Positions 32,126-55,375 of a DNA stretch of 64,000 bases are shown one piece after another; within the stretch, counting starts at the first letter, position 1; each line of letters opens with the position of its first letter. The notes beneath the pieces were generated by a model, which saw only the letters and a list, made by a program, of their open reading frames with translations, was not told the origin of the DNA and ran no database searches. The DNA comes from Roseovarius gahaiensis (GTDB taxonomy: Bacteria; Pseudomonadota; Alphaproteobacteria; Rhodobacterales; Rhodobacteraceae). The stretch spans positions 1 through 64,000 of the forward strand of contig NZ_JAAORB010000012.1 in NCBI RefSeq assembly GCF_011601345.1. The letters are read 5' to 3'. A program made the translations under genes and the position numbers.

Positions 32126-33514
32126 TCAGGCGTGGATTGCGCCGTCACCGCAGGCCAAGGCCGCCTCGCGCACCGCTTCGGAATAGGTTGGGTGGGCGTG
32201 ACAGGTGAGGGCCAGATCCTCGGCTGACGCGCCAAACTCCATCGCCACACAGATTTCATGGATCAGGTCACCGGCCATCGGGCCAATGATATGCGCACCA
32301 AGGATCCTGTCGGTGTCCTTGTCGGCAAGGATTTTGACAAACCCATCTGCGGCAAAGTTGGCCTTGGCCCGACCATTGCCCATGAAGGAAAACTTGCCGA
32401 CTTTGTAGGCGCGGTCGGCGTCTTTGAGCTCTTCCTCGGTCTGGCCGACGCTGGCGACCTCGGGGTGGGTGTAGATCACGCCGGGAATGACGCCATAGTT
32501 CACATGACCATGTTTGCCGGCAATCACTTCGGCGGCGGCCATGCCTTCATCCTCGGCCTTGTGGGCCAGCATCGGGCCGGCGATGGCATCGCCGATGGCA
32601 TAGAGGCCTTCGACATTGGTGCGCCATTGATCATCGGTTTCGATCTGGCCACGTTCGGACATCTTGACGCCAAGCGCGTCGAGGCCAAGGCCATCGGTGA
32701 AGGGTTTGCGGCCCGTGGCGACCAGCACGGTATCGGCGTCAAGCGTGTGTTCACTGTCGTCTTTGCGCAGTTTGTAATGCACTTTGGCCTTGGTTTTCAT
32801 CGTCTCGACAGATTGCACGGCCGCGCCCATCACAAATTCAAGCCCCTGCTTTTTCAGCAGTTTCTGGAATTGCTTTTGCACCTCACCATCCATGCCGGGG
32901 GTGATGTGATCGAGGAATTCAACGACCGTGACCTCGGTTCCGAGACGGGAATAGACCGAGCCGAGTTCGAGTCCGATCACGCCTGCGCCGATCACTACCA
33001 TTTTTTTGGGGATTTTGGACAGTTCCAGCGCCCCGGTGGAGGTGACAACGGTTTTCTCATCCACCTCGACGCCGGGCAGAGACGAGGAGTCAGAGCCGGT
33101 GGCGATGATGATGTTCTTGGCTTCGTGAACATCGTCACCGACCTTGACCCTGCCCTTTTCGGGGATCGTGCCCCAGCCTTTGAGCCAGTCGATCTTGTTC
33201 TTTTTGAACAGGAATTCAATGCCCTTGGTGTTCTGGCCGATGACATCATCCTTGTAGGCCAGCATCTGTTTCCAGTCGACGGACGGTGATTTTCCCTTGA
33301 GGCCCATCTTGGCGAAATTATGCTCGGCCTCGTGCAACTGGTGGCTGGCATGCAGCAGAGCCTTGGATGGGATACAGCCGACGTTGAGGCAGGTGCCACC
33401 CAATGTGTCGCGGCCTTCGACGCAGGCGGTTTTCAGGCCAAGCTGCGCGCAGCGGATGGCGGCGACATAGCCTCCGGGACCGGAGCCGATGACGATGACG
33501 TCATAATTTGCCAT
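32126..33514 (-). CDS. lpdA: Dihydrolipoyl dehydrogenase
   Basis: A 462-residue FAD flavoprotein, E3 of 2-oxoacid dehydrogenase complexes. FAD motif [12 protein letters not shown] (about 7-18), redox disulfide [13 protein letters not shown] (about 38-50), NAD-binding [12 protein letters not shown] and the catalytic HAHPTYSE near the C-terminus are all present. It is the last gene of the suc region, and MAPEG and small genes separate it from sucB. Confidence 0.96.
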
Positions 33515-33542
33515 AAGGGTATCCTTTCGGTTGAGCGGGTTT

Positions 33543-33604
33543 GGGGGCACTGCCCCCGTCGCCCGATGGGCGACTCCCCCGGAGTATTTTTGGAACAATG
33601 AAGA
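33543..33604 (+). repeat. Dispersed intergenic repeat: two hairpins plus GGAGTATTTTTGG tail
   Basis: Hairpin GGGGGCACTGCCCCC (33543-33557), hairpin GTCGCCC-GAT-GGGCGAC (33558-33574), then CGGAGTATTTTTGG followed by AACAATGAAG. The tail matches 23911-23939. It fills the gap between the MAPEG gene and lpdA and could also act as a processing site or attenuator. Confidence 0.65.
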
Positions 33605-34700: not shown

Positions 34701-36251
34701 TTACAAATCCATCAACAACCGCCGCGGATCTTCCAGCGCCTCTTTCACCCGGACGAGGAAGGTGACCGCGCCTTTGCCGTCGACGATGCGGTGATCGTAG
34801 GAAAGGGCCAAATACATCATCGGGCGGGCCTTGATCTCGCCGTTCACCACCATCGGGCGTTGCTGGATCTTGTGCATCCCCAGAATCCCCGATTGCGGCG
34901 GGTTGAGGATGGGCGAGGACATCAGCGAGCCGTAGACGCCACCGTTGGAGATGGTGAACGTGCCGCCCTGCATTTCGGCCATCGACAGTTTCCCGTCACG
35001 CGCCCGCGCGCCTTTTTCGGCAATGGCTTTTTCGATCGCGGCGAATGACATCGCGTCGGTGTCGCGGATCACCGGCACCACGAGGCCGGTGGGGGTGCCA
35101 GCGGCGATGCCCATATGCACGAAGTTCTTGTAGACGATATCGGTGCCGTCGATTTCGGCGTTGACCTCGGGGACTTCTTTCAAGGCGTGGCAGCAGGCCT
35201 TGGTGAAGAAGGACATGAAGCCCAGCTTGACGCCGTGTTTCTTGAGAAACTCGTCTTTGTATTCATTGCGGAGCGCCATCACCTCGGTCATGTCCACCTC
35301 GTTATAGGTGGTGAGCATGGCGGCGGTGTTTTGGCTGTCTTTGAGGCGCTTGGCGATGGTCTGGCGTAGGCGGGTCATCTTGACCCGTTCCTCGCGCGCG
35401 GCGTCATCTGCGCTGACCGGGGCACGGGGGGCTTGTGCCGGTTGGGCCGATGCGGCGGGGGCGGATGTAGCGGCCGAGGCAGCCTTGGCCACGTCTTCTT
35501 TCATGATCCGGCCATCGCGACCCGAGCCTTGGACCTGATCGGCAGAGAGGCCTTTTTCAGCCATTGCCTTTTTGGCCGATGGGGCGTGTTCGATGTCGCC
35601 ACCCTGTGCGCTTTGAGTTTCCTTGCCGCCTTCGGGGGCGCTGTCGTCATCGGCGGGCTCGGGGCGTTTGTCGGGCGTGATCGTGCCATCCGCCGAGCCC
35701 GAGAGCACGGCGATCTTGCCACCTGCCTGCACGGTATCGCCTTCCTGAGCAAGGATATCGCAGATCGTGCCAGCGGCGGGCGAGGGGACTTCGACCGAGA
35801 CTTTGTCGGTTTCCAGCTCACACAGCATTTCGTCCTGAGAGACGCTGTCGCCAACCTTTTTGAACCAAGTAGAGACCGTGGCCTCGGAGACGCTTTCGCC
35901 AAGCGTGGGCACCATCACATCGACATTGCCTTTGTCGCCGTTGCTTTCCGACGCGGCGGGTTGGGTCTTGTCTTGTTCGGCGCTGTCATCGGCATCGTCC
36001 GATTTGGCACCTGCGCCTTCGGAAATCGTCGCCAACAGGGCGTCGACGCCTACGGTTTCGCCTTCACCGGCGACGATTTCGCCAAGGGTGCCTGCGGCGG
36101 GTGAGGGCACTTCGACGGTGACTTTGTCGGTTTCCAGCTCACACAGCATTTCGTCGGCGGCGACGGGATCGCCGGGTTTCTTGAACCAAGTGGCGACGGT
36201 GGCCTCGGTCACGGATTCGCCGAGCGTGGGGACGCGAACTTCGGTAGACAT
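34701..36251 (-). CDS. sucB: 2-oxoglutarate dehydrogenase E2, with two lipoyl domains
   Basis: A 516-residue dihydrolipoyl succinyltransferase. Two lipoyl domains lie in tandem: residues 1-78 (lipoyl-Lys in [10 protein letters not shown]43) and about 110-187 ([10 protein letters not shown]150), joined by an acidic Ala/Ser linker. A subunit-binding domain (about 217-250) and the catalytic domain with [13 protein letters not shown] follow. Most E2o proteins have one lipoyl domain and about 400 residues. It starts 3 bases after the sucA stop. Confidence 0.96.
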
Positions 36252-36254
36252 GCG

Positions 36255-39215
36255 TTATTTCCCTTCGATGGTCAGCGCGGCTTCGACCAGCGCCTCTTGT
36301 TGTGCTTTGTGTTGAGACGCGAGGCCCGTGGCGGGCGACGCGGCGGCCGCGCGGCCAGCATAGGTGGGGCGGGTGTGCTTGGCGTTGATGCGTTGCAGAA
36401 CCCATTCGATATTCGGCTCAATAAAGAACCACGCGCCCTGATTTTTCGGCTCTTCCTGACACCAGACCATTTCGGCCTGTTTGAAGCGTTCCAGTTCCTT
36501 GACCATGGACATGGCCGGGAACGGATAAAACTGTTCGACGCGCAACAGGTAGACATCGTCGATGCCGCGCTTGTCGCGCTCTTCCAGAAGGTCGTAATAC
36601 ACCTTGCCAGAACACAGCACCACGCGCTTGATCTGATCGTCAGGTTTCAGTTGCGTGTCCGAGTTGCCGTATTGCGCATCGTCCCACAGCACCCGGTGAA
36701 AGCTTGAGCCGGTGGTGAACTCTTCGGTTTTCGAAACGGCCATCTTGTGACGCAGCAAAGATTTGGGCGTCATCATGATCAGCGGTTTGCGATAGGTGCG
36801 GTGCAGCTGGCGGCGCAGGATGTGGAAATAGTTGGCCGGTGTGGTGCAGTTGGCCACGATCCAATTGTCGCCGCCACACATCGTGAGGAAGCGTTCCAGA
36901 CGCGCCGAAGAGTGTTCGGGGCCCTGTCCTTCGTATCCATGCGGCAGCAGGCACACGAGGCCTGACATGCGCAGCCATTTGGATTCGCCCGAACTGATGA
37001 ACTGGTCGAACATGATTTGCGCGCCGTTGGCAAAGTCGCCGAACTGGGCCTCCCACAGGGTCAAGGCGTTGGGTTCGGCAAGGCTGTAGCCATATTCGAA
37101 CCCAAGAACCGCGTATTCGCTGAGCATCGAATCGATGACTTCGTAGCGGGCTTGACCCTCGCGGATGTGGTTAAGCGGAAAGTAACGCTCTTCGGTGTCT
37201 TGGTTGATAAAGGCCGAATGGCGTTGGCTGAAGGTGCCGCGGCTGCTGTCCTGACCGGAAAGGCGCACGGGGTATCCTTCCAGCTGGAGTGAGCCGAAGG
37301 CCAGCGCCTCGGCGGTGGCCCAATCAAAGCCTTCGCCGGTTTCGAACATTTTCTTCTTAGCGTCCAGCAGGCGACCAACGGTCTTGTGCAGAGGAAACCC
37401 TTCCGGGGCGGTGGTCAGGGCGCGGCCGATGTCTTCCATCGTTTCGGGCGGGATGGAGGTTTCGCCGCGCTGATAATCCTCGTCCTTGCGGTCAAGGTGC
37501 GACCACTTGCCATCCAGCCAGTCGGCCTTGTTGGGGCGGTATTCCTTGCCCGCTTCGAACTCGTCGGCCAGATACGATTGGAAGGCGGCCTTCATATCGT
37601 CAATCTCGCCTTCGGGAATCAGACCGTCTTTGACAAGCCGTTCGGTATAAAGGCTGAGTGTGGTCTTTTGCTTCTTGATCTTGTTGTACATCACCGGGTT
37701 CGTGAACATGGGCTCGTCGCCCTCGTTATGGCCGAACCGGCGGTAACAGATGATGTCGATTACCACGTCTTTTTGGAACTTCTGGCGGAATTCCGTGGCC
37801 ACCTTGGCGGCGTGAACAACCGCTTCGGGGTCGTCGCCGTTGACGTGGAAAATGGGTGCCTCGACCATCAGCGCGATGTCCGTGGGGTAGGGCGAGGAGC
37901 GCGAGAAATGCGGCGCGGTGGTAAAGCCGATCTGGTTGTTAACCACGATATGCATGGTGCCGCCGGTTTTATGGCCTTTCAGCCCCGACAGGCCAAAGCA
38001 TTCCGCCACGACGCCCTGACCGGCAAAGGCCGCATCGCCGTGCAGCAACACCGGAAGAACGCTGGTGCGTTCGTCGTCGTTAAACTGGTCCTGCTTGGCG
38101 CGGACCTTGCCCAGAACCACCGGGTTCACCGCCTCAAGGTGCGAGGGGTTCGCGGTCAGCGACAGGTGCACCTTGTTGCCGTCGAATTCCCGGTCGCTTG
38201 ACGCCCCGAGGTGGTATTTCACATCGCCCGAGCCGTCCACGTCTTCGGGTTTGAAGCTACCCCCCTGAAATTCGTTAAAGATCGCGCGGTAGGGTTTGCC
38301 CATCACGTTGGCCAGCACCGACAGGCGGCCGCGGTGCGGCATGCCGATGACGATCTCTTTGACGCCAAGGCCGCCACCACGCTTGATGATCTGCTCCATC
38401 GCGGGGATCAGGCTTTCGCCGCCATCAAGGCCAAAGCGTTTGGTGCCCATATATTTGACGTGCAGGTATTTCTCGAAGCCTTCAGCCTCGACCAGCTTGT
38501 TCAAAATGGCCTTGCGGCCTTCGCGGGTAAAGGTGATTTCCTTATCATAGCCTTCGATCCGTTCCTTCAGCCAACCGGCCTGTTCGGGATCGGAAATGTG
38601 CATGTATTGCAGGGCAAAGGTGCCGCAATAGGTGCGTTTGACGATATCAAGGATTTCCCGGATCGACGCGACCTGAAGGCCCAGAACGTTGTCGATGAAA
38701 ATCGGGCGGTCCATATCCGACTCGGTGAAGCCGTAGGATTTCGGATCAAGCTCGGGGCGGGCGCCATGATCCCGCAGGCCAAGCGGGTCCAGCTCGGCGA
38801 TCAGATGGCCACGGATGCGGTAGGCGCGGATCAGCATCAAGGCGCGCACGGAATCCAGAACGGCGCGTTTTACCGCCTCGTCGGAGACTTCGATGCCCTT
38901 TTCGGAAGCTTTCTGCTTGATCTTGTCGCCGGCCTTCTGTGTTTCCAGTTCGGCAGGCCATTCGCCGGTCAGGGCGCTGGTCAGATCGTCATTGGGCATC
39001 GGCGGCCAATCGGCGCGCGCCCAGCTTGGCCCCGCGGCCTCTTTCTTGACATCCGTTTCGCCATCCCCAAGCTCGCGGAAAAACGCCTGCCACGCCTCGT
39101 CGACCGCGTTCGGGTCGTTTGCGTAGCGCGCGTAAAGCTGTTCAAGATATTCCGCATTGTGCCCCTGCATGAAGCTGGAGGCGTGGAACTGGTCGTTGGG
39201 GGATTGGTCGGTCAT
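36255..39215 (-). CDS. sucA: 2-oxoglutarate dehydrogenase E1
   Basis: A 986-residue thiamine-diphosphate enzyme that decarboxylates 2-oxoglutarate. The N-terminal SSFMQGHNAEYLEQLYARY, the MPHRGRLSVLANVM segment, and the ThDP motif around GDAAFAGQGVVAEC and INNQIGFTT-like VNNQIGFTTAP are all typical. Length matches the family. The ATG overlaps the stop of the preceding hypothetical gene by 4 bases. Confidence 0.97.
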   Translation of the reverse strand: MTDQSPNDQFHASSFMQGHNAEYLEQLYARYANDPNAVDEAWQAFFRELGDGETDVKKEAAGPSWARADWPPMPNDDLTSALTGEWPAELETQKAGDKIKQKASEKGIEVSDEAVKRAVLDSVRALMLIRAYRIRGHLIAELDPLGLRDHGARPELDPKSYGFTESDMDRPIFIDNVLGLQVASIREILDIVKRTYCGTFALQYMHISDPEQAGWLKERIEGYDKEITFTREGRKAILNKLVEAEGFEKYLHVKYMGTKRFGLDGGESLIPAMEQIIKRGGGLGVKEIVIGMPHRGRLSVLANVMGKPYRAIFNEFQGGSFKPEDVDGSGDVKYHLGASSDREFDGNKVHLSLTANPSHLEAVNPVVLGKVRAKQDQFNDDERTSVLPVLLHGDAAFAGQGVVAECFGLSGLKGHKTGGTMHIVVNNQIGFTTAPHFSRSSPYPTDIALMVEAPIFHVNGDDPEAVVHAAKVATEFRQKFQKDVVIDIICYRRFGHNEGDEPMFTNPVMYNKIKKQKTTLSLYTERLVKDGLIPEGEIDDMKAAFQSYLADEFEAGKEYRPNKADWLDGKWSHLDRKDEDYQRGETSIPPETMEDIGRALTTAPEGFPLHKTVGRLLDAKKKMFETGEGFDWATAEALAFGSLQLEGYPVRLSGQDSSRGTFSQRHSAFINQDTEERYFPLNHIREGQARYEVIDSMLSEYAVLGFEYGYSLAEPNALTLWEAQFGDFANGAQIMFDQFISSGESKWLRMSGLVCLLPHGYEGQGPEHSSARLERFLTMCGGDNWIVANCTTPANYFHILRRQLHRTYRKPLIMMTPKSLLRHKMAVSKTEEFTTGSSFHRVLWDDAQYGNSDTQLKPDDQIKRVVLCSGKVYYDLLEERDKRGIDDVYLLRVEQFYPFPAMSMVKELERFKQAEMVWCQEEPKNQGAWFFIEPNIEWVLQRINAKHTRPTYAGRAAAASPATGLASQHKAQQEALVEAALTIEGK

Positions 39216-40026: not shown

Positions 40027-40908
40027 TTACCCAATCGCCTTGAGCACGGCTTCGCCCAAGGTGGCGGGGCTGTCGGCGACAACGATCCCGGCGGATTTCA
40101 TCGCCTCGATCTTGTCGTCGGCGCCGCCCTTGCCACCGGCGACGATGGCACCGGCGTGGCCCATGCGACGGCCCGGAGGCGCGGTGCGGCCCGCGATAAA
40201 GCCAGCGGTGGGTTTCCAGCGGCCTTTCTTGCGCTCATCGGCAAGGAATTGCGCGGCCTCTTCTTCGGCCGAACCGCCGATTTCACCAATCATGATGATC
40301 GACTCGGTCTCGTCATCGGCAAGGAACCATTCCAGAACGTCGATATGTTCGGTGCCTTTGATCGGGTCGCCGCCGATGCCGACGCAGGTGGACTGGCCAA
40401 GACCCACATCGGTGGTCTGCTTGACCGCCTCGTAGGTCAGCGTGCCCGAGCGTGAGACAACGCCGCACGACCCGCGCTTGTGAATGTGACCGGGCATGAT
40501 GCCGATCTTGCAGGCGTCGGGCGTGATGACACCGGGGCAGTTCGGCCCGATCAGCGTGGAGTTTGAGGTTTCCAGCGCGCGCTTGACGCGCATCATGTCC
40601 AGAACCGGGATACCTTCGGTGATGCAGACGATCACCTCCATCTCGGCGTCGATTGCTTCGAGGATACTGTCGGCGGCAAACGGCGGTGGCACGTAGATCA
40701 CCGAGGCGTTCGCCTGCGTTTCGTGCTTGGCCTCGTGGACCGAGTTGAACACCGGCAGATCAAGATGCGTCTGACCGCCTTTGCCGGGTGTGACCCCGCC
40801 GACCATCTTGGTGCCGTAGGCGATGGCCTGTTCGGTGTGGAATGTGCCCTGCGAGCCGGTAAGGCCCTGACAGATCACTTTGGTGTTTTCGTCGATGAGG
40901 ACTGCCAT
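40027..40908 (-). CDS. sucD: Succinyl-CoA ligase, alpha subunit
   Basis: A 293-residue subunit that binds CoA and carries the phosphohistidine. N-terminal [15 protein letters not shown] (CoA site) and the phosphohistidine motif [12 protein letters not shown] (about 246-257) are visible. GGAG lies upstream of the ATG. It pairs with sucC, 58 bases before it in the operon. Confidence 0.97.
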
Positions 40909-40966
40909 CTTGGCGTTCTCCTTTGGAAATTCCGGGGAAGGTGCGCAGTGAATGCGCACCCTACGG

Positions 40967-42160
40967 TCAGCCTTTGACGGCCTTTACGATCTTCTCGGCG
41001 CCGTCTTTCAGGTCGTCGGCGGCGATCACGTCGAGGCCGGAATTCGAGATGATTTCCTTGCCTTTTTCGACGTTGGTGCCTTCCAGACGCACAACCAGCG
41101 GCACCTTCAGGCCCACCTCTTTGACCGCGGCAATGACGCCTTCGGCGATCACGTCGCAGCGCATGATGCCGCCAAAGATGTTGACCAGAATGCCTTTGAC
41201 CTGCGGGTCCGAGGTGATGATCTTGAACGCCTCGGTTACTTTTTCCTTGGTGGCGCCACCGCCCACGTCAAGAAAGTTGGCCGGTTCCGCGCCATACAGC
41301 TTGATGATGTCCATGGTCGCCATCGCAAGGCCCGCGCCGTTCACCATGCAGCCGATTTCACCGTCCAGAGCGATGTAGTTGAGGTCGTATTTCGACGCTT
41401 CCAGCTCTTTGGGGTCTTCTTCGGTGGTGTCGCGCAGTTCGGCGACATCGGAGTGGCGGTAGACCGCGTTGCCGTCAAAACCCATCTTGGCGTCAAGGCA
41501 TTTCAGATCGCCCTTGTCGGAAATGATCAGCGGATTAATCTCAAGCATTTCCATGTCTTTTTCAAGGAACAGCTTATAGAGAATGCCCATCAGCTTGACG
41601 CATTGTTTTACCTGCGCGCCTTCAAGGCCCAGCATGAACGCGATGCGGCGGCCATGGAACGGCTGATAGCCGGTGGCCGGATCAACCGAGAAGCTGAGGA
41701 TCTTTTCCGGGGTGCTTTCGGCGACTTCTTCGATATCCATGCCGCCTTCGGTCGAGGCAACGAACGACACGCGCGATGTCTGACGGTCGACCAGCAGGGC
41801 GAGGTAGAATTCTTTTTCGATGTCCGAGCCGTCTTCGATATAGATGCGGTTGACCTGTTTACCGGCGGGGCCGGTTTGTTTGGTCACCAGCGTTGAGCCC
41901 AGCATCCGCTTGGCTTCTTCGGCGGCTTCTTCGACTGATTTGGCCAGACGCACGCCACCGGCTTCTCCGGCGCGGGCCTCTTTAAAGCTGCCCTTGCCGC
42001 GGCCACCCGCGTGGATCTGCGCCTTGACCACCCAAAGGGGGCCGTCCATTTCGCCAGCGGCGGTTTTGGCTTCTTCGGCGCGCAGCACGACACGGCCATC
42101 CGAGACCGGGGCGCCGTAGGAGCGAAGCAGAGCTTTCGCCTGATACTCATGGATATTCAT
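40967..42160 (-). CDS. sucC: Succinyl-CoA ligase, beta subunit
   Basis: A 397-residue ATP-grasp subunit. N-terminal [36 protein letters not shown], and the C-terminal [16 protein letters not shown] plus [11 protein letters not shown] are family signatures. It is the first suc gene of the operon and is separated from mdh by 262 bases that hold the mdh terminator and paired TGTGATCACA operators. Confidence 0.97.
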
Positions 42161-42263
42161 GAAACTGTCCCGTTTTGCTACGATTGCAACCTGTGTGTCA
42201 TATTATTTGGACATGCGGGAAGAAGTTTTTACGTATTGCAGAGGATTTTGGGGATTTTCGAAC

Positions 42264-42300
42264 ATTTGTGATCACAGCTTCAAATCGTGTGATCACAAAT
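42264..42300. promoter_or_regulatory. Paired TGTGATCACA operators upstream of sucC
   Basis: Two exact TGTGATCACA palindromes (42267-42276 and 42288-42297), 21 bp centre to centre, nested in a larger perfect 13-bp inverted repeat ATTTGTGATCACA / TGTGATCACAAAT. The pair is about 104 bases upstream of the sucC start. The same arrangement lies upstream of sdhC (51491-51528). Confidence 0.7.
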
Positions 42301-42364
42301 TTAAAATATAATAAAAAGTGCATATTTTCCAGAATCATCACGGGCAGCGTCATCCCGCGACCCA

Positions 42365-42399
42365 CAAAAAAACGGCGCCACGCAAGTGACGCCGTTTTA
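42365..42399 (-). terminator. Terminator after mdh
   Basis: On the minus strand: a 13-bp stem AAAACGGCGTCAC / GTGGCGCCGTTTT (one G-T pair), TTGC loop, then a run of T. It lies 24 bases after the mdh stop, so mdh and suc are separate units. Confidence 0.9.
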
Positions 42400-42422
42400 C
42401 TAGATATCCTTGTGATGCCGGG

Positions 42423-43478
<1,056 letters not shown>

Positions 43479-43545
43479 TCATGCTGGCGCTGGATCATGA
43501 CGCGCGCTAACACTGCGTGGAAACAGGGAGTTAGGGCCAATTGCC

Positions 43546-44300
43546 ATGATTTTGCCAGACCCGGCAGTTTTTGCTGTTGCACTGCCCGCAGTGGTCTTTG
43601 CGGGGATATCAAAGGGCGGCTTCGGGTCGGGCGCGGCCTTTGCCAGCGCGTCGATTCTGGCACTGGTGATCGAGCCGGGGCAGGCCCTTGGTATCATGTT
43701 GCCGCTGCTGATGTTGATCGACGTGTCGACCCTGCGGCCTTATTGGCGGCGCTGGAACTGGCGTGACGCGCGGCGGCTTTTGCTGGGGTGTGTGCCGGGG
43801 GTTACGATGGGAGCCCTTTTATACAGCATGGCGGAACCGGATGTGTTGCGCCTGCTGATCGGCGGGATTTGTCTGGCCTTCATCGGCTGGCGGGGGCGCT
43901 GCGGGCCGGGTTGGTGCGTCCATCGGCGCAGCCGTTGCCCGGATGGGCGGGGGTTCTGGCCGGGACGGTGGCAGGCTTTACCAGCTTTGTCAGCCATGCG
44001 GGCGGGCCACCGGCCGCTGTTTATCTGCTGTCGCAGCGATTGGACAAAACCACCTTTCAGGCGACCACCGTCATCGTATTCTGGGCGCTGAACATGATGA
44101 AATTTGTGCCTTACGCCTTCTTGGGTATCTTCACCATGGAAACCTTGGTGCTGGACGTGATGTTGGCCCCCTTTGCGGTGATGGGCGCGTGGCTGGGCAT
44201 ATGGGCGCATCGCGTGGTCCCCCAAACGCTATTTTTCGCCATTACATATGTTTTGTTGGCTGTAACCGGCACCAAGTTGATCTGGGACGCTCTGACGTAA
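43546..44300 (+). pseudogene. TSUP (TauE/SafE) family exporter, interrupted by a frameshift
   Basis: The frame from 43546 reads as a TSUP transporter (GISKGGFGSGAAFASASILAL, then MLPLLMLIDVS) up to FIGWR near 43891. After the G5 run at 43892-43896 the homologous reading continues in another frame (ALRAGLVRPSAQPLPGWAGV, then SHAGGPPAAVYLLSQRLDK) to a stop at 44300. One extra G would restore a single protein of about 250 residues. TSUP proteins move sulfite, sulfonates or other anions. It may be a real pseudogene, a phase-variable tract or a sequencing error. It is divergent from mdh. Confidence 0.8.
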
Positions 44301-44417: not shown

Positions 44418-45281
44418 ATGGATACCGCAACACGGCCTTTTCGTTCGGTCCTTTATATACCCGGCTCCAAGGATCGGGCGTTGGACAAGGCGCGTACATT
44501 GCCCTGCGATGCCATCATTTTCGACCTTGAGGATGCAGTTTCGCCCGAGGCCAAGCCGCAGGCGCGTGAAACGCTGGCGAACGCTCTGAAACAGGGTGGC
44601 TATGGCAAACGCTCGAAAATCGTGCGGATCAACGCTTTGACCACGGAATGGGGCCTTGAGGATGCGCGGGCGCTGCGCGATGCGGGTGCGGATGCAATCT
44701 TGCTACCCAAGGTCAACACGCCATCGGATGTGGACAATCTGGCCGATATGCTGGGCCCCGACATGCCGATCTGGGTGATGATGGAAACCCCTGTCAGCGT
44801 GTTTAACGCCCGCGAAATCGCGGCCCATGCGCAGGTGGCGGGGCTGGTTGCCGGCACCAATGATTTGACCAAGGATCTGGGCTGTCGCACCCGTGCCGAT
44901 CGTCTGCCGTTGATGACCTCGTTGCAGATGATCGTCATGGCGGCCCGTGCGGCGCGTGGTGTGGTTGCAATTGACGGGGTGTATAACCGATTCCGCGATG
45001 GTGAGGGGCTGAAGGCCGAATGTGAACAGGGCCGTGACCTGGGCTTTGACGGCAAGACACTGATTCACCCGGCGCAGATTGACGTGACAAACACCGCCTT
45101 TGCGCCCACACAGTCGGAAATCGATCTGGCGCAACGTCAGATCGCAGCGTTCGAGGAAAGCCACGCGGCAGGGCAAGGCGTGGCCGTGGTCGATGGACAG
45201 ATTGTGGAAAACCTGCACATTGTTGCGGCGCAGCGCATTCTGGCCAAGGCCGAGGCAATCAAGGACATGGCAGCGGAGTAA
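44418..45281 (+). CDS. HpcH/HpaI-family CoA-ester lyase, probably (3S)-malyl-CoA thioesterase (Mcl2-like)
   Basis: A 287-residue enzyme with the CitE/malyl-CoA-lyase pattern RSVLYIPGSKDRALDKA, FDLEDAV (metal-binding Glu/Asp), WVMMETP and GTNDLTKDLG. In Rhodobacter sphaeroides the Mcl2 paralogue, about this long, hydrolyses malyl-CoA to malate and sits next to mch with NnrU-like and DUF1737 genes between; the same order is seen here. Lyase activity on malyl- or methylmalyl-CoA is the alternative. AGGGAGG precedes the ATG. Confidence 0.82.
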   Translation: MDTATRPFRSVLYIPGSKDRALDKARTLPCDAIIFDLEDAVSPEAKPQARETLANALKQGGYGKRSKIVRINALTTEWGLEDARALRDAGADAILLPKVNTPSDVDNLADMLGPDMPIWVMMETPVSVFNAREIAAHAQVAGLVAGTNDLTKDLGCRTRADRLPLMTSLQMIVMAARAARGVVAIDGVYNRFRDGEGLKAECEQGRDLGFDGKTLIHPAQIDVTNTAFAPTQSEIDLAQRQIAAFEESHAAGQGVAVVDGQIVENLHIVAAQRILAKAEAIKDMAAE

Positions 45282-46045: not shown

Positions 46046-47077
46046 ATGGCCAAGACAAATCCGGGCCGGTTTTTCGAGGATTATTCGATTGGGGACGTGA
46101 TTGCGCACGCGGTGCCGCGCACCGTGTCAGGCGGAGAGCGGGCGCTATATCATGCGCTCTATCCCGCGCGCCATGCGCTGTATTCGTCGGACGAGTTTGC
46201 ACGCGGCTGCGGCCTGCCGTCCAGCCCGCTGGATGATCTGGCGGCGTTTCACGTGGTGTTTGGCAAAACCGTGCCCGATGTATCGCTGAACGCGCTGGCC
46301 AATTTGGGCTATGCCGAGGGCCGCTGGCTCAAGCCGGTCTATCCGGGCGATACGCTGCGCTCCACCAGCAAGGTGATCGGGCTCAAGCAGAATTCAAACG
46401 GCAAATCCGGTGTCGTTTGGGTGCGCACCAAGGGCGAAAACCAGCGCGGCGAGACCGTGCTGGATTATGTGCGTTGGGTCATGGTGCGCAAACGCGATCT
46501 GGACGCTGCGGCACCCGAGACCACCATTCCTGATCTCAAGCCCGCACTGGACGCCAGCGATCTGGTGATCCCCGAGGGGCTTGATTTCACCGATTACGAT
46601 TTCACCTTGGCCGGGGAACCGCACCGTTGGGCCGATTACGAGGTGGGCGAGGTGATCGACCATGTCGATGGCGTAACCATCGAAGAGGCCGAGCATATGA
46701 TGGCGACCCGCCTTTGGCAGAACACGGCCAAGGTGCATTTCGACGCCACCCTGCGCGAAGACGGCAACCGCCTGATCTATGGGGGGCATGTGATTTCGAT
46801 GGCCCGCACCCTGAGCTTCAACGGGCTGGCCAATGCGCAGATGATCGCCGGGCTGAACGCAGGTGCACATGCGAATCCGTGCTATAGCGGTGATACGATC
46901 AAGGCTTGGTCGGAAGTTCTGGACAAGGCCGAAACGCCTGCGCCCGGTGTGGGGGCGCTACGCTTGCGGTTGGTCGCCACAAAGGGTGGCACGCCGTTCA
47001 CTCTGAAGGGCGATGACGGGAAATATCTGCCGCATGTATTGCTGGACTTGGATTACTGGGCATTGATTCCGCTTTGA
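46046..47077 (+). CDS. mch: Mesaconyl-CoA hydratase (MaoC family)
   Basis: A 343-residue double-hotdog protein. The first hotdog starts GRFFEDYSIGDVIAHAVPRT; a second, MaoC-like half (from about 195) starts HRWADYEVGEVIDHVDG. Its length and its context beside an Mcl2-like gene match Rhodobacter Mch, which interconverts mesaconyl-CoA and beta-methylmalyl-CoA in the ethylmalonyl-CoA pathway for acetate assimilation. Generic MaoC dehydratase is the fallback call. Confidence 0.85.
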   Translation: MAKTNPGRFFEDYSIGDVIAHAVPRTVSGGERALYHALYPARHALYSSDEFARGCGLPSSPLDDLAAFHVVFGKTVPDVSLNALANLGYAEGRWLKPVYPGDTLRSTSKVIGLKQNSNGKSGVVWVRTKGENQRGETVLDYVRWVMVRKRDLDAAAPETTIPDLKPALDASDLVIPEGLDFTDYDFTLAGEPHRWADYEVGEVIDHVDGVTIEEAEHMMATRLWQNTAKVHFDATLREDGNRLIYGGHVISMARTLSFNGLANAQMIAGLNAGAHANPCYSGDTIKAWSEVLDKAETPAPGVGALRLRLVATKGGTPFTLKGDDGKYLPHVLLDLDYWALIPL

Positions 47078-51100: not shown

Positions 51101-51376
51101 GCGGGGATTATCGTGCGCAATTCGATCTTGCTGGTGGATTTTATCAGGCATACCGACCCGGCCGGAAAAAGCGACTTGGATATCCTGATCGACGCTGGTG
51201 CGATCCGGTTCAGGCCGATTCTGCTCACAGCTTTGGCGGCTATGATTGGGGCGGCGGTGATTTTGGCCGATCCGATTTTTCAGGGTCTTGCACTGTCGCT
51301 TTTCTTTGGTCTGATCTCGTCAACATTGCTGACAGTTTTGGTGATTCCGGCGATTTATCGTGTGTTCAAGACCTGA
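48170..51376 (+). CDS. RND efflux permease (AcrB/HAE1-like)
   Basis: A 1068-residue proton-driven pump with the usual two repeats of one helix, large periplasmic loop and five helices. PREEEPQISVP near the N-terminus is typical. The proton-relay Asp pair is in SIGILVDDAIVVIENIARHW in the fourth helix region. Substrate not predictable; drug or metabolite export is likely. It is the last gene of the unit, since the sdhC region begins after it. Confidence 0.93.
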   Translation: MSEQGDTVRPLGLAGWLTRGFITSPLTPLIILAALAVGLIALISLPREEEPQISVPLVDIHIQASGLTAEDAVQLVTEPMENIVQAIDDVEHVYSQTRDDTAMVTARFEVGTSADAAILRVHEKVRANLDRIPVGIPEPLIVGRGINDVAIVTLTLAGKPGHEVSSYDLTRMARALRGELTKIDNVGLTYLTGDAQEAIRVAPDPEKLALYGVTLQQLAGKVQSANRAFSTGTLRDGGQQIDLIAGETLTNPAEIASLLLTARDGRPVYVGDVAQIEFVPDMSEQYAANVTRTEDGGLHRAPAVTLALAKRAGANAVIVAEEILHKVHALEGDLIPESVALSVTRDYGETANEKANELLFHLGLATVSIIGLVWLSIGWRESIVVAVVIPMTILLTLFAAWIMGYTLNRVSLFALIFSIGILVDDAIVVIENIARHWQLDRGKSKIKAAIDAVAEVGNPTIVATLTVVAALLPMLFVSGLMGPYMSPIPANASAAMIFSFFVAVMVTPWLMVKVSGKDGADAEAHEEGEGVLGRVYRRVATPILATKARSGLFLFLTVVISFGSLGLLYTKDVTVKLLPFDNKSELSVVVDLPEGASVEATDAVVQKVARAAMDLPEVVAAQTHAGTAAPFNFNGLVRHYYLRALPEQGDVQVNLLPKGERERTSHEIALDLRERLNGLDLPEGTAVKTVEPPPGPPVLATLLAEVYGPDAETRREVARKLRTAFEEVPYIVDVDDSFGVQPRRLRATISSDDLEFFGVQEADVFDTLAILNGQTPVGYSHRGEGRDPIPITVARAKSDRVMDQRMLSTPIPANVLPGARGVVELGDVVQVRDEQASFPIFRRNGRDIEMVTAELAGDFEAPLYGMLAVADKIDAMEWPEGQKPQIALNGQPADESGVTLLWDGEWEVTWVTFRDMGAAFGVALLAIYILVVAQFGSFRVPLVILTPVPLTFIGIMLGHWLWGAPFSAPSMIGFIALAGIIVRNSILLVDFIRHTDPAGKSDLDILIDAGAIRFRPILLTALAAMIGAAVILADPIFQGLALSLFFGLISSTLLTVLVIPAIYRVFKT

Positions 51377-51384
51377 TTTGGTTT

Positions 51385-51394
51385 TGTGATCACA
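51385..51394. promoter_or_regulatory. Distal single TGTGATCACA site upstream of sdhC
   Basis: An exact copy of the 10-bp palindrome, preceded by TTT, 9 bases after the RND permease stop and about 270 bases upstream of sdhC. It may be an auxiliary operator for looping to the proximal pair. Confidence 0.55.
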
Positions 51395-51490
51395 TCAGCC
51401 GCTTCGTGGCATAAGTCGACCGATTACCCTTAACCGTCAGATTTCCAAGCCTTAGGGGACTGATAGCCTCTTGACCTACAATCAGGGTTA

Positions 51491-51528
51491 ATTTTGTGAT
51501 CACACGATAATTTACGTGATCACAAAAT
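51491..51528. promoter_or_regulatory. Paired TGTGATCACA-type operators upstream of sdhC
   Basis: TGTGATCACA (51495-51504) and CGTGATCACA (51515-51524), 20 bp centre to centre, together forming a perfect 13-bp inverted repeat ATTTTGTGATCAC / GTGATCACAAAAT. The pair lies about 137 bases before the sdhC start. The architecture is the same as upstream of sucC. Confidence 0.7.
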
Positions 51529-51664
51529 GCCGATCTGCGACGAATTGACGGTAGAATTCACCAAATGGGGCTGTGCAAAGCGCAATCACGCGCTAAAAGA
51601 CTCATGACAAGGGCAGTCCACTCACCGTGGGCGCGCCCCAAGGACGAAAACGAAGGGACCGACC

Positions 51665-52048
51665 ATGGCCGACGTGAACCGGGGCGACCGCCCACTGTCT
51701 CCACATCTGCAAGTCTATCGCCCACAGCTGACTTCGATTACCTCGATTCTGACGCGCCTGACCGGCAATGCCTTGATCGTTGCCGCGCTGCTGGTTGTCT
51801 GGTGGTTGTTGGCCGCCGCGACGGGGCCGGAGTATTTTGCAATGGCAAACGCGGTGGTGACATCGTGGTTCGGGGATTTGGTTTTCACGCTGTCGCTTTG
51901 GGCGATCTGGTATCACTACTTTGCCGGGCTGCGGCATTTGATCTACGATTCTGGCAAGGGCCTTGAAATAGAAACGGCTGAAAAGCTGGGCATCGCCTGT
52001 ATCGCCGGGTCGGTAATCATGACCATCATCACGCTGATAATCATTTAA
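51665..52048 (+). CDS. sdhC: Succinate dehydrogenase cytochrome b556 subunit
   Basis: A 127-residue membrane anchor with three helices. RPLSPHLQVYRPQLTSITSI at the N-terminus and the heme-ligand histidine segment WYHYFAGLRHLIYD (about 79-92) are typical of SdhC. It binds heme b and ubiquinone with SdhD. It opens the sdhCDAB operon; AGGGACC is upstream of the ATG. Confidence 0.95.
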   Translation: MADVNRGDRPLSPHLQVYRPQLTSITSILTRLTGNALIVAALLVVWWLLAAATGPEYFAMANAVVTSWFGDLVFTLSLWAIWYHYFAGLRHLIYDSGKGLEIETAEKLGIACIAGSVIMTIITLIII

Positions 52049-52061
52049 AAGGGGGCCAGCC

Positions 52062-52433
52062 ATGCGTTTTCTAACAGCACGCAAGCGCGCCGAAGGTTTG
52101 GGCGCTGCTCATTCCGGCACCGAACATCATTGGTATATGATCGTCAGCTCGGTGGGCTTGGCGTTGATCGTGCCGATCTTTCTTTTCGTCTTTGGCCGTG
52201 CGCTTGGGGGCACTCATGATGAGGTTATCGATACCTTTTCAAACCCCGCCGTGGCGATTCTGACAATACTGGTCCTGTATGTGGGGCTGCAACATTTCCG
52301 CAAGGGCGCACAAACCATGATCGAAGATTACGCGGGCGGCATGACCCGGAAGATCCTGATCATCTCGGTCACGGTGCTAAGCTATGGCATGATCGCCACT
52401 GGCTTGTTCGCCGTTCTCAAGATCGCCCTTTAA
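52062..52433 (+). CDS. sdhD: Succinate dehydrogenase membrane anchor subunit
   Basis: A 123-residue protein with three helices. The N-terminal RAEGLGAAHSGTEHHWYM and the central LYVGLQHFRKGAQTMIEDY (quinone/heme site region with conserved His and Asp-Tyr) are typical of SdhD. It starts 13 bases after sdhC. Confidence 0.94.
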   Translation: MRFLTARKRAEGLGAAHSGTEHHWYMIVSSVGLALIVPIFLFVFGRALGGTHDEVIDTFSNPAVAILTILVLYVGLQHFRKGAQTMIEDYAGGMTRKILIISVTVLSYGMIATGLFAVLKIAL

Positions 52434-52451: not shown

Positions 52452-54257
52452 ATGGCTGCTTACGAATACGAAACGCACGATTATGATGTTGTTGTCGTGG
52501 GGGCGGGCGGCGCAGGGCTGCGCGCCACGCTTGGCATGGCCGAACAGGGCCTGCGCACGGCCTGCGTGACCAAAGTGTTCCCGACACGCTCGCACACGGT
52601 TGCGGCACAGGGTGGCATCGCCGCGTCGCTGTCGAACATGGGGCCGGATCACTGGCAGTGGCACATGTATGACACGGTCAAGGGCAGTGATTGGCTGGGC
52701 GATACAGACGCCATGGAATATCTGGCGCGCGAGGCCCCCAAAGCCGTGTATGAGCTGGAACATTACGGTGTTCCGTTCAGCCGCACCGAAGAGGGCAAGA
52801 TTTATCAGCGCCCCTTTGGTGGCCATACCACGGAATTCGGGGAAGGCCCGCCGGTGCAGCGCACGTGTGCCGCCGCCGACCGGACTGGCCACGCCATTCT
52901 GCACACGCTTTATGGCCAGAGCCTGAAAAACAACGCCGAATTCTACATCGAATATTTCGCCATCGACCTGATCATGAGCGATGATGGTGCCTGCACCGGT
53001 GTTGTCTGCTGGAAGCTGGACGATGGAACGATGCATGTGTTCAACGCCAAGATGGTGGTGTTGGCAACAGGCGGCTATGGCCGCGCCTATTTCAGCGCCA
53101 CAAGCGCGCATACCTGCACCGGCGACGGTGGCGGCATGGTGGCCCGTGCGGGGCTGCCGCTGCAGGACATGGAATTTGTGCAGTTTCACCCAACGGGCAT
53201 CTATGGCTCGGGTTGTCTGATCACCGAAGGTGCGCGCGGTGAGGGTGGTTACCTGACCAACAGCGAAGGCGAGCGGTTCATGGAGCGCTATGCGCCCAAC
53301 TACAAAGACCTTGCGCCGCGCGATTATGTCAGCCGTTCGATGACGATGGAAATCCGCGAGGGCCGGGGCGTGGGTCCGAATGGTGATCATATTCACCTGA
53401 ACCTGTCGCACCTGCCCGCCGAGGCGCTAAACCTGCGCCTGCCCGGCATTTCGGAATCCGCCAAGATTTTCGCCGGTGTGGACGTCACGAAAGAGCCGAT
53501 CCCGGTGCTGCCCACCGTGCATTACAACATGGGCGGTATTCCGACGAACTATTGGGGCGAGGTTTTGAACCCCCAAAAGGATGATCCGCACGCCGTTGTG
53601 CCGGGGCTGATGGCCGTGGGCGAGGCCGGGTGCGCCAGTGTTCACGGGGCGAACCGCCTTGGGTCCAACTCGTTGATCGACTTGGTGGTGTTTGGCCGTG
53701 CGGCCGCTATCCGGGCCGGTAAGGTGGTTGATCCCGAAACAGCCGTGCCCGACACCAATACGGCACAGGTCGATAAAGCGTTTGACCGGTTCGATACCCT
53801 GCGCCATGCCGATGGTGACACGCCGACGGCTGATCTGCGTCTGGAAATGCAGAAAACCATGCAAGAAGACGCCGCCGTGTTCCGGACCTCAAAAACCTTG
53901 GCTGACGGCGTCAATAAAATGCAGGCCATTGCCGCCAAGGTTGGCGATTTGAAGGTGACGGACCGCTCGCTTATCTGGAACTCGGACCTGATGGAGACGT
54001 TGGAGCTGACCAACTTGATGCCCAACGCCTTGGCCACCATCGCCGGGGCAGAGGCACGCAAGGAAAGCCGCGGCGCACATGCGCATGAGGATTTCACCAC
54101 GCGTGACGATGAAAACTGGCGGGTGCACACGATCGCACGGGTGGCTGATGCGACGATCGATCTTAGCTATCGCCCGATCATCGAAGATCCGCTCACGTCC
54201 GAGACCGACGGTGGCATAAGCATCAAGAAAATCGCCCCCAAGGAACGGACGTTCTGA
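52452..54257 (+). CDS. sdhA: Succinate dehydrogenase flavoprotein subunit
   Basis: A 601-residue catalytic subunit with covalent FAD. Motifs: [18 protein letters not shown], the FAD-linked His in [13 protein letters not shown] (about 49), active-site region [20 protein letters not shown], and [19 protein letters not shown]. Length is standard. Its stop overlaps the start of a small lipoprotein gene by one base. Confidence 0.98.
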
Positions 54258-54595: not shown

Positions 54596-55375
54596 ATGGT
54601 TCAACTGAGACTCCCCAAGAATTCCCGGATGACAGCGGGCAAGACATGGCCCAAGCCCGAGGGCGCAAAAAACGTCCGCAAGTTCCAAGTTTATCGTTGG
54701 AATCCTGACAACGGCGACACTCCTAGCGTCGATACCTATTTCGTCGATCTGGACGATTGTGGGCCGATGGTTCTGGATGCGCTGATTTACATCAAAACCA
54801 AGATCGACCCGACGCTGACGTTCCGCCGGTCTTGCCGCGAGGGGATCTGCGGATCCTGTGCGATGAATATCGACGGGATCAACACGTTGGCCTGTATTTA
54901 TGGCATGGACGAAATCAGAGGCGATGTGAAAATCTATCCGTTGCCGCATATGCCCGTGGTCAAGGATTTGATTCCCGACCTCACGCATTTTTACGCGCAG
55001 CACGAAAGCATCATGCCGTGGTTGGAGACCAAAACGAATGCTCCGGCGAAAGAATGGAAGCAATCGATAGAAGACCGTGAAAAGCTTGATGGTCTTTATG
55101 AATGCGTGATGTGTGCCTGTTGCTCGACCTCCTGCCCGTCTTATTGGTGGAACGGTGACAAGTATCTTGGGCCGGCAGCCCTGTTGCATGCCTATCGCTG
55201 GATCATCGACAGCCGCGACGAGGCTACGGGCGAGCGTCTGGATGATCTGGAAGATCCCTTCAAGCTGTATCGTTGCCATACGATCATGAACTGCACCAAG
55301 ACCTGCCCCAAAGGTCTGAACCCGGCCAAAGCGATTTCAAACATCAAGAAAATGATGGTTGAGCGGGCAGTCTGA
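54596..55375 (+). CDS. sdhB: Succinate dehydrogenase iron-sulfur subunit
   Basis: A 259-residue subunit that passes electrons from FAD to quinone. [2Fe-2S] ligands are in [15 protein letters not shown] and the later LAC. [4Fe-4S] and [3Fe-4S] ligands are in [13 protein letters not shown] and [24 protein letters not shown] precedes the ATG. A terminator follows. Confidence 0.98.

Follow-up and report, generated by a model that had tools for sequence, protein, structure and literature searches.

Candidate AkgR operators at the sdh and suc operons of Roseovarius gahaiensis, with a conserved third site at sdh

Among the described systems, the one closest to the locus analyzed here is the AkgR regulon of Rhodobacter sphaeroides; AkgR is reportedly the same protein as RSP_0981, as the abstract of a 2015 article by Imam et al. 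is said to state. For RSP_0981, a GntR-type regulator, control of sucCD, sdh, and 2-oxoglutarate dehydrogenase has been predicted (PMC4344238), and AkgR, which has been termed a transcriptional activator, has been linked to a GTGATCAC palindrome, a motif that was also reported for a Pseudomonas regulator with 32% identity to AkgR (PMC6365646). As far as these sources describe it, the AkgR regulon has in common with the system presented below a GntR-family regulator, the GTGATCAC palindrome, and the targets sucCD, sucAB-lpd, and sdh (PMC4344238, PMC6365646), whereas the location of the regulator gene away from the TCA-cycle cluster (on contig C34), the 20-bp spacing of the paired sites at sdh, and a third operator 110 bp further upstream are traits read from the present genome. 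In view of the published links of RSP_0981 with these operons and of AkgR with GTGATCAC, the core of the system is therefore most likely known biology in a new species, with the distal third copy of the palindrome as the new detail. No description of such a third (distal) operator was found in the literature searched, the scope of which excluded the primary AkgR paper, and a literature search on the 10-mer palindrome returned no title concerning this regulator.

A further system with clear parallels is that of Atu1419 from Agrobacterium fabrum, a member of the VanR group with several structures in the PDB (6Z74 and others); its PDB entries are among nine PDB sequence matches to the regulator of the present genome, 6z74 with an E value of 6.4e-5. 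The likeness includes the GntR/FCD domain architecture, 10-bp palindromes, a site within the -35/-10 spacer of the regulator's own promoter, and the occurrence of multiple sites within a promoter region (PMC7797058). In contrast, Atu1419 represses hydroxycinnamate genes, recognizes the palindrome ATGTATACAT, and has a folate as its proposed effector (PMC7797058). At one of its promoters, 10-bp palindromes are located 190 bp apart and DNA loops were seen by electron microscopy; at another, a palindrome and a second, degenerate palindrome are 109 bp apart (PMC7797058). Of the two systems, Atu1419 is the one for which the tetramer and the loop have been demonstrated (PMC7797058).

Palindromes upstream of sdh and suc

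The window (i.e., the whole 64,000-nt stretch of R. gahaiensis DNA that was analyzed) carries the sdh operon on the forward strand, starting with sdhC (positions 51665 to 52048; TIGR02970, 120.1 bits at a cut-off of 52.3) and continuing with a candidate sdhD (52062 to 52433; assigned by position only, with no NCBIfam match at 1e-20), sdhA (52452 to 54257; TIGR01816, 926.4 bits), and sdhB (54596 to 55375; NF004616, 383.5 bits). The suc operon is located on the reverse strand, with sucC (40967 to 42160) as its first gene, followed by sucD (40027 to 40959), sucA (36255 to 39215), sucB (34701 to 36251), and lpd (32126 to 33598). Between mdh and sdh, there are a CitE/malyl-CoA-lyase-like ORF (44418 to 45281) and a hydratase-like ORF (46046 to 47077), both under the NCBIfam cut-offs; they are possibly enzymes of the ethylmalonyl-CoA pathway.

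Pairs of predicted operators precede both sucC-sucD-sucA-sucB-lpd and sdhC-sdhA-sdhB. The proximal pair at sdh (51491 to 51528; like the other palindromic sites, it is assigned to neither strand) consists of an exact TGTGATCACA at 51495 to 51504, as read from the sequence, and of CGTGATCACA at 51515 to 51524, which differs from TGTGATCACA by one mismatch; the two members are spaced 20 bp apart, start to start, and sit inside an inverted repeat whose 13-bp arms are ATTTTGTGATCAC (51491 to 51503) and GTGATCACAAAAT (51516 to 51528). The distal putative AkgR operator, an exact TGTGATCACA at 51385 to 51394, is found 8 bp past the stop codon of an RND transporter ORF that ends, according to the ORF list, at 51376. 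The putative operator pair before sucC (42264 to 42300) occupies the mdh-sucC gap; its members (42267 to 42276 and 42288 to 42297) are both exact, are spaced 21 bp apart, and are likewise part of 13-bp arms (42264 to 42276 and 42288 to 42300). The sequence-only reading had described the same palindrome three times in front of sdh, in a repetition of the sucC arrangement. The presence of the motif before both operons is confirmed by the exact copies at 51385 and 51495 and the similar pair upstream of sucC, and 13-bp arms are indeed found at both loci; however, the third copy at sdh matches in only 9 of 10 positions, and the spacing is 20 bp at sdh versus 21 bp at sucC. Just 3' of the proximal operator, positions 51531 to 51548 form a TTTTTGCG-N-C-N-AATTG-like stretch that is kept in many rows of the genus alignment and may represent the site of a second factor or an UP-like element.

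The doublet pattern GTGATCACN{11,13}GTGATCAC matches the window at two places, those at sdh and suc, and none of 100 shuffled sequences. Copies of the 10-mer with up to two mismatches number 32 in the window against 24.3 expected, a count reached by 5 of 100 shuffles; since this is barely above chance, the case is built on the exact copies, their pairing, and their conservation. Across the 3.38-Mb genome, exact TGTGATCACA occurs 10 times and the same 10-mer written backwards, which served as a control, not a single time. Five of these 10 copies are found inside ORFs; the other half are in promoter regions, two at suc, two at sdh, and one at a further promoter, that of a gntR gene. The relaxed pattern YGTGATCACR has 28 matches in the genome, six of them in promoter regions of sdh, suc, and gntR; the remaining ones are mostly in ORFs, with four loci (L295, L306, L309, and L312) ambiguous when judged by the four longest frames per locus.

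Several known types of binding sites were compared with the palindrome. CRP and FNR half-sites are separated by a spacer of 4 to 6 nt, whereas TGTGA and TCACA of the palindrome directly adjoin each other, so that the earlier remark on its dissimilarity to the spaced CRP/FNR motifs stands and these regulators can be set aside. CceR, a LacI-family regulator that we take to be RSP_1663, was rejected as well: its motif, [AGT]GTT N6-8 AAC[ACT], is absent from positions 51377 to 51665, 42161 to 42423, and 43381 to 43600. For R. sphaeroides, control of mdh and sdh has also been predicted for RSP_1663 (PMC4344238). The FadR-subfamily consensus is made up of TKGT/ACMA boxes with 2 to 3 nt between GT and AC (PMC4494728); here, the boxes TTGT/ACAA match, but the GATC centre comprises 4 nt.

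The regulator and its co-occurrence with the operators

The exact copy at the gntR promoter (C34:92074-92083) is located outside the window and ends 8 bp upstream of the start of a gene (C34:92092-92736) that encodes a 215-residue GntR/FCD regulator, with both domains scoring above the cut-off (PF00392, GntR, 51.6 bits; PF07729, FCD, 63.3 bits). Its best PDB sequence match is McbR (PDB 4P9F; residues 17 to 212, E value of 4.9e-19), which we take to be an Escherichia coli protein with a different function. The homologue set analyzed here consists of the best 80 of 516 homologues (L034-L113), which are 81 to 97% identical to the regulator and come from Roseovarius, Ruegeria, Sulfitobacter, and other genera; the closest of these 80, at 97%, is from Roseovarius pacificus. 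Within the 200 bp before the start codon, TGTGATCACA is present as an exact copy in 72 of the 80 and with at most one mismatch in 77, so that 8 loci have no exact copy and 3 of these not even a one-mismatch site; the rest of the 80 loci, 499,315 bases in total, contains two exact copies. Among the 78 promoters that have a core site, 72 show it exactly 17 nt downstream of the beginning of a TTGAC box. It thus fills the spacer that follows a -35-like box, an arrangement typical of autorepressors, and for this reason the regulator would most likely repress its own gene. In the FCD domain, residues N136, H140, H183, and D205 are invariant among the 80 homologues; the last of these is presumably an aspartate in a position where a metal-binding histidine is common. 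By analogy with other FCD proteins, the four residues are candidates for the lining of the ligand pocket.

Conservation of the sites before sdhC was assessed at one locus from each of 30 genera; these 30 loci were the best among the sdhC matches, which were found in 59 of 61 family (Rhodobacteraceae) genomes. A pair with no more than 3 mismatches of 20 is present in 28 of these 450-bp upstream regions (the lowest value in 900 shuffles was 5), with a spacing of 21 bp in 25 of them and 20 bp in 3; the exceptions are L181, where the pair is spaced at 19 bp, and L182, with no pair in 355 bp. The exact doublet is found in 51 of the 61 family genomes (two copies in 40, one in 10, and three in 1), and the control in none of the 61. 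Of the 93 doublets, 30 loci were examined, of which 29 are directly before sucC or sdhC and one is before fumC. This last one is the third doublet of G426 (L293, positions 2294 to 2322), the only genome of the 61 that has three, and stands before the gene for the next TCA-cycle step, a class II fumarase (TIGR00979, 736.8 bits). Among 385 genomes sampled across the class, all 5 family members have the doublet, as do 2 of the 380 others.

The sequence-only reading had tied the motif to TCA-cycle genes and had expected it before suc and sdh in relatives; both the footprint at sdhC (28 of 30 genera) and the doublet loci (29 of the 30 examined before sucC or sdhC, and all 30 before TCA-cycle genes) bear this out. 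The location of 5 of the 10 exact copies within ORFs is what a general repeat without relation to the TCA cycle might look like, but such a repeat would not be expected to precede TCA-cycle genes at 30 of 30 examined doublet loci (of 93), nor to form the doublet in just 2 of the 380 non-family genomes of the sample, and we consider this explanation extremely improbable.

Homologues of the C34 regulator (E value of 1.8e-57 or lower, identity of at least 48%) are encoded in 51 of the 61 family genomes; the GntR matches in the other 10 are at 3.5e-46 or weaker, and the E-value threshold for presence of the regulator was set after this gap was seen. The doublet and the regulator are both present in 50 genomes and both absent from 9, with one genome in each discordant class (Fisher p of 5.7e-9, uncorrected for shared ancestry). 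The first discordant genome, G403, a draft that is 91% complete, has the doublet and no regulator was found in it; in the second, G424, the regulator is present and the pair, spaced at 21 bp, has degraded to CGTGATCACG and CGCGATCACG. The 450-bp sdhC upstream regions of the regulator-lacking genomes contain no site with one or no mismatch in any of the 8 readable cases. By hand count, the regulator gene is found less than 25 kb from sdhC in 19 of the 51 genomes that encode it, near the sucC doublet in two more, and near neither in 30; in the present genome, it is on a contig separate from that of sdh and suc. In G387 (L294), the gene order, with names assigned by eye, is mdh, an ORF, the doublet, sucC, two ORFs, sucD, sucA, sucB, an ORF, lpd, an ORF, and gntR, which is convergent and has a site beside its start. 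The order sucC, sucD, sucA, sucB, lpd is the same in the window.

Because the sites in the regulator's own promoter, the footprint of the pair at sdhC, the targets of the doublet, and the co-occurrence of doublet and regulator all agree, the regulator can be named. It is highly likely that the palindromes serve as operators of the AkgR-type GntR/FCD regulator encoded at C34:92092-92736, and this protein very probably corresponds to AkgR of R. sphaeroides. The earlier proposal that suc and sdh share one TCA-cycle regulator, then left without a name, is thus supported by the comparative evidence. Another GntR/FCD paralogue, rather than the AkgR ortholog, is very unlikely to be the protein that binds these sites: the genome does have 13 GntR-domain matches (12 above the cut-off), outside the family, TGTGATCACA also occurs close to further GntR matches (in G147, G203, G263, and G355), and GTGATCAC has been reported for the Pseudomonas regulator that is 32% identical to AkgR (PMC6365646), but the C34 site is the sole one of the 10 exact genomic sites that is close to a GntR gene, and the doublets track the C34-type gene even though the 10 genomes without it all have weaker GntR matches.

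The palindromes of those four genomes outside the family (G147, C189:992-1020; G203, C1:2860559; G263, C3:529857; G355, C6:46316) are less than ~300 bp from the GntR matches, and G147 is also one of the two outside-family genomes with a doublet, which stands before another GntR match; these sites suggest that GntR operators built around a GATC centre form a wider class. Five additional genomes of the class (G105, G211, G301, and G379, all with the family code f105, and G112) contain 6 to 15 exact copies of TGTGATCACA each, no doublet, and GntR matches at 33 to 40% identity. These copies may mark a more extensive regulon under a related regulator.

Promoter geometry and the direction of regulation

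If the AkgR assignment is correct, dimers of the regulator would occupy neighboring sites, separated by two turns of the helix, ahead of the promoters of sdh and suc, and the bound regulator would switch both operons together. In 47 of the 58 pair-bearing upstream regions (family and genus taken together), a GTGAC[AT] sequence is found 3' of the pair, and 11 have none; it starts 56 to 59 nt after the proximal site in 44 of the 47 and elsewhere in 3, and is presumably a -35-like promoter element. In the window itself, the sequence that separates the pair from sdhC lacks GTGAC.

Repression is the prevailing mode among GntR-family proteins, which counts in favor of the pair repressing, rather than activating, sdh and suc, as does the probable self-repression through the site in the regulator's own promoter spacer. 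However, the pair of the relatives lies ~57 nt upstream of GTGAC[AT] and not over it, and AkgR has been called a transcriptional activator (PMC6365646). Because of this placement well upstream of the promoter-like element in relatives and the description of AkgR as an activator, activation of sdh and suc is the more likely mode, and repression appears unlikely.

The distal site in the genus and the looping question

The genus sample comprised the window and 29 other genomes (the best 30 of 40 searched). The distal core is present in 26 of the 30 congeners, 98 to 114 bp upstream of the pair, and is exact in 23 of these 26; an exact first member of the pair is found in 16 of 30 and an exact second member in 10 of 30. 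Among congeners, the distal 10-mer is 97.8% identical in pairwise comparisons, against 28.5% for the 80 bp that follow when these are compared without gaps; when gaps are allowed, this 80-bp spacer scores barely above shuffled sequence (0.591 versus 0.578). As judged by eye from the alignment, the sequence 5' of the distal site also varies between congeners, which ties the site to sdh rather than to the preceding gene. Judging from these comparisons, the distal sdh site (51385) is a genus-level addition under selection. It would most likely act as a high-affinity anchor that raises the occupancy of the weaker pair, through a loop or otherwise.

The layout of the genus, which is possibly a derived one, combines a pair spaced at 20 rather than 21 bp with a presumably stronger distal operator ~110 bp upstream; within the window, this three-operator arrangement was observed at sdh and not at suc. 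A distal core 80 to 130 bp away accompanies 28 of the 31 upstream regions with 20-bp pairs, 1 of the 26 with 21-bp pairs, and the single one with a 19-bp pair not at all; L163 and L176, from two other genera, have both the 20-bp spacing and the distal site. The tree built from SdhC and part of SdhA (59 rows) is resolved too poorly to support repeated joint gains of the two traits, splits the genus, and offers one usable independent pair for this association of spacing with the distal site.

The separation of the sites, 110 bp in the window and 97 to 114 bp in relatives, agrees with multiple operators located ~100 to 190 bp apart in one promoter region. Atu1419 forms a tetramer and loops DNA, and a DNA loop at sdh, which had been suggested on the basis of the 110-bp distance, is therefore physically plausible. 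Whether an AkgR tetramer on the proximal pair would also grip the distal site ~110 bp upstream, in the manner of a looping switch, is more doubtful. The retention of the distal core in 26 of 30 congeners amid a random spacer, its association with 20-bp pairs (28 of 31, against 1 of 26 with 21-bp pairs), and the precedent of DNA looping by a GntR/FCD tetramer (PMC7797058) speak for it; however, the distances between the pair and the distal site spread over 97 to 114 bp, 25 of the 29 pair-bearing family loci have no distal core 80 to 130 bp upstream, and the association with spacing carries uncorrected ancestry, with a tree that provides a single usable independent pair. A short, stiff loop would be expected to hold the helical phase between the sites constant; at 10.5 bp, R is 0.40 (nominal Rayleigh p of 0.01) when 29 related loci are counted and 0.10 (p of 0.9) when 11 distinct distances are used. 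In its broader form, the proposal that a derived three-operator sdh architecture of the genus would convert an activator element with two sites into a switch that acts cooperatively or through a loop is a tentative one.

A likely regulator has been named that couples two consecutive TCA-cycle operons throughout a large bacterial family, which also makes for a clean example of a regulator and its operators being present or absent jointly. The three-operator layout would be a genus variant of the known AkgR operators, and its conserved extra operator provides a small, directly testable case of a two-site promoter gaining a third site.
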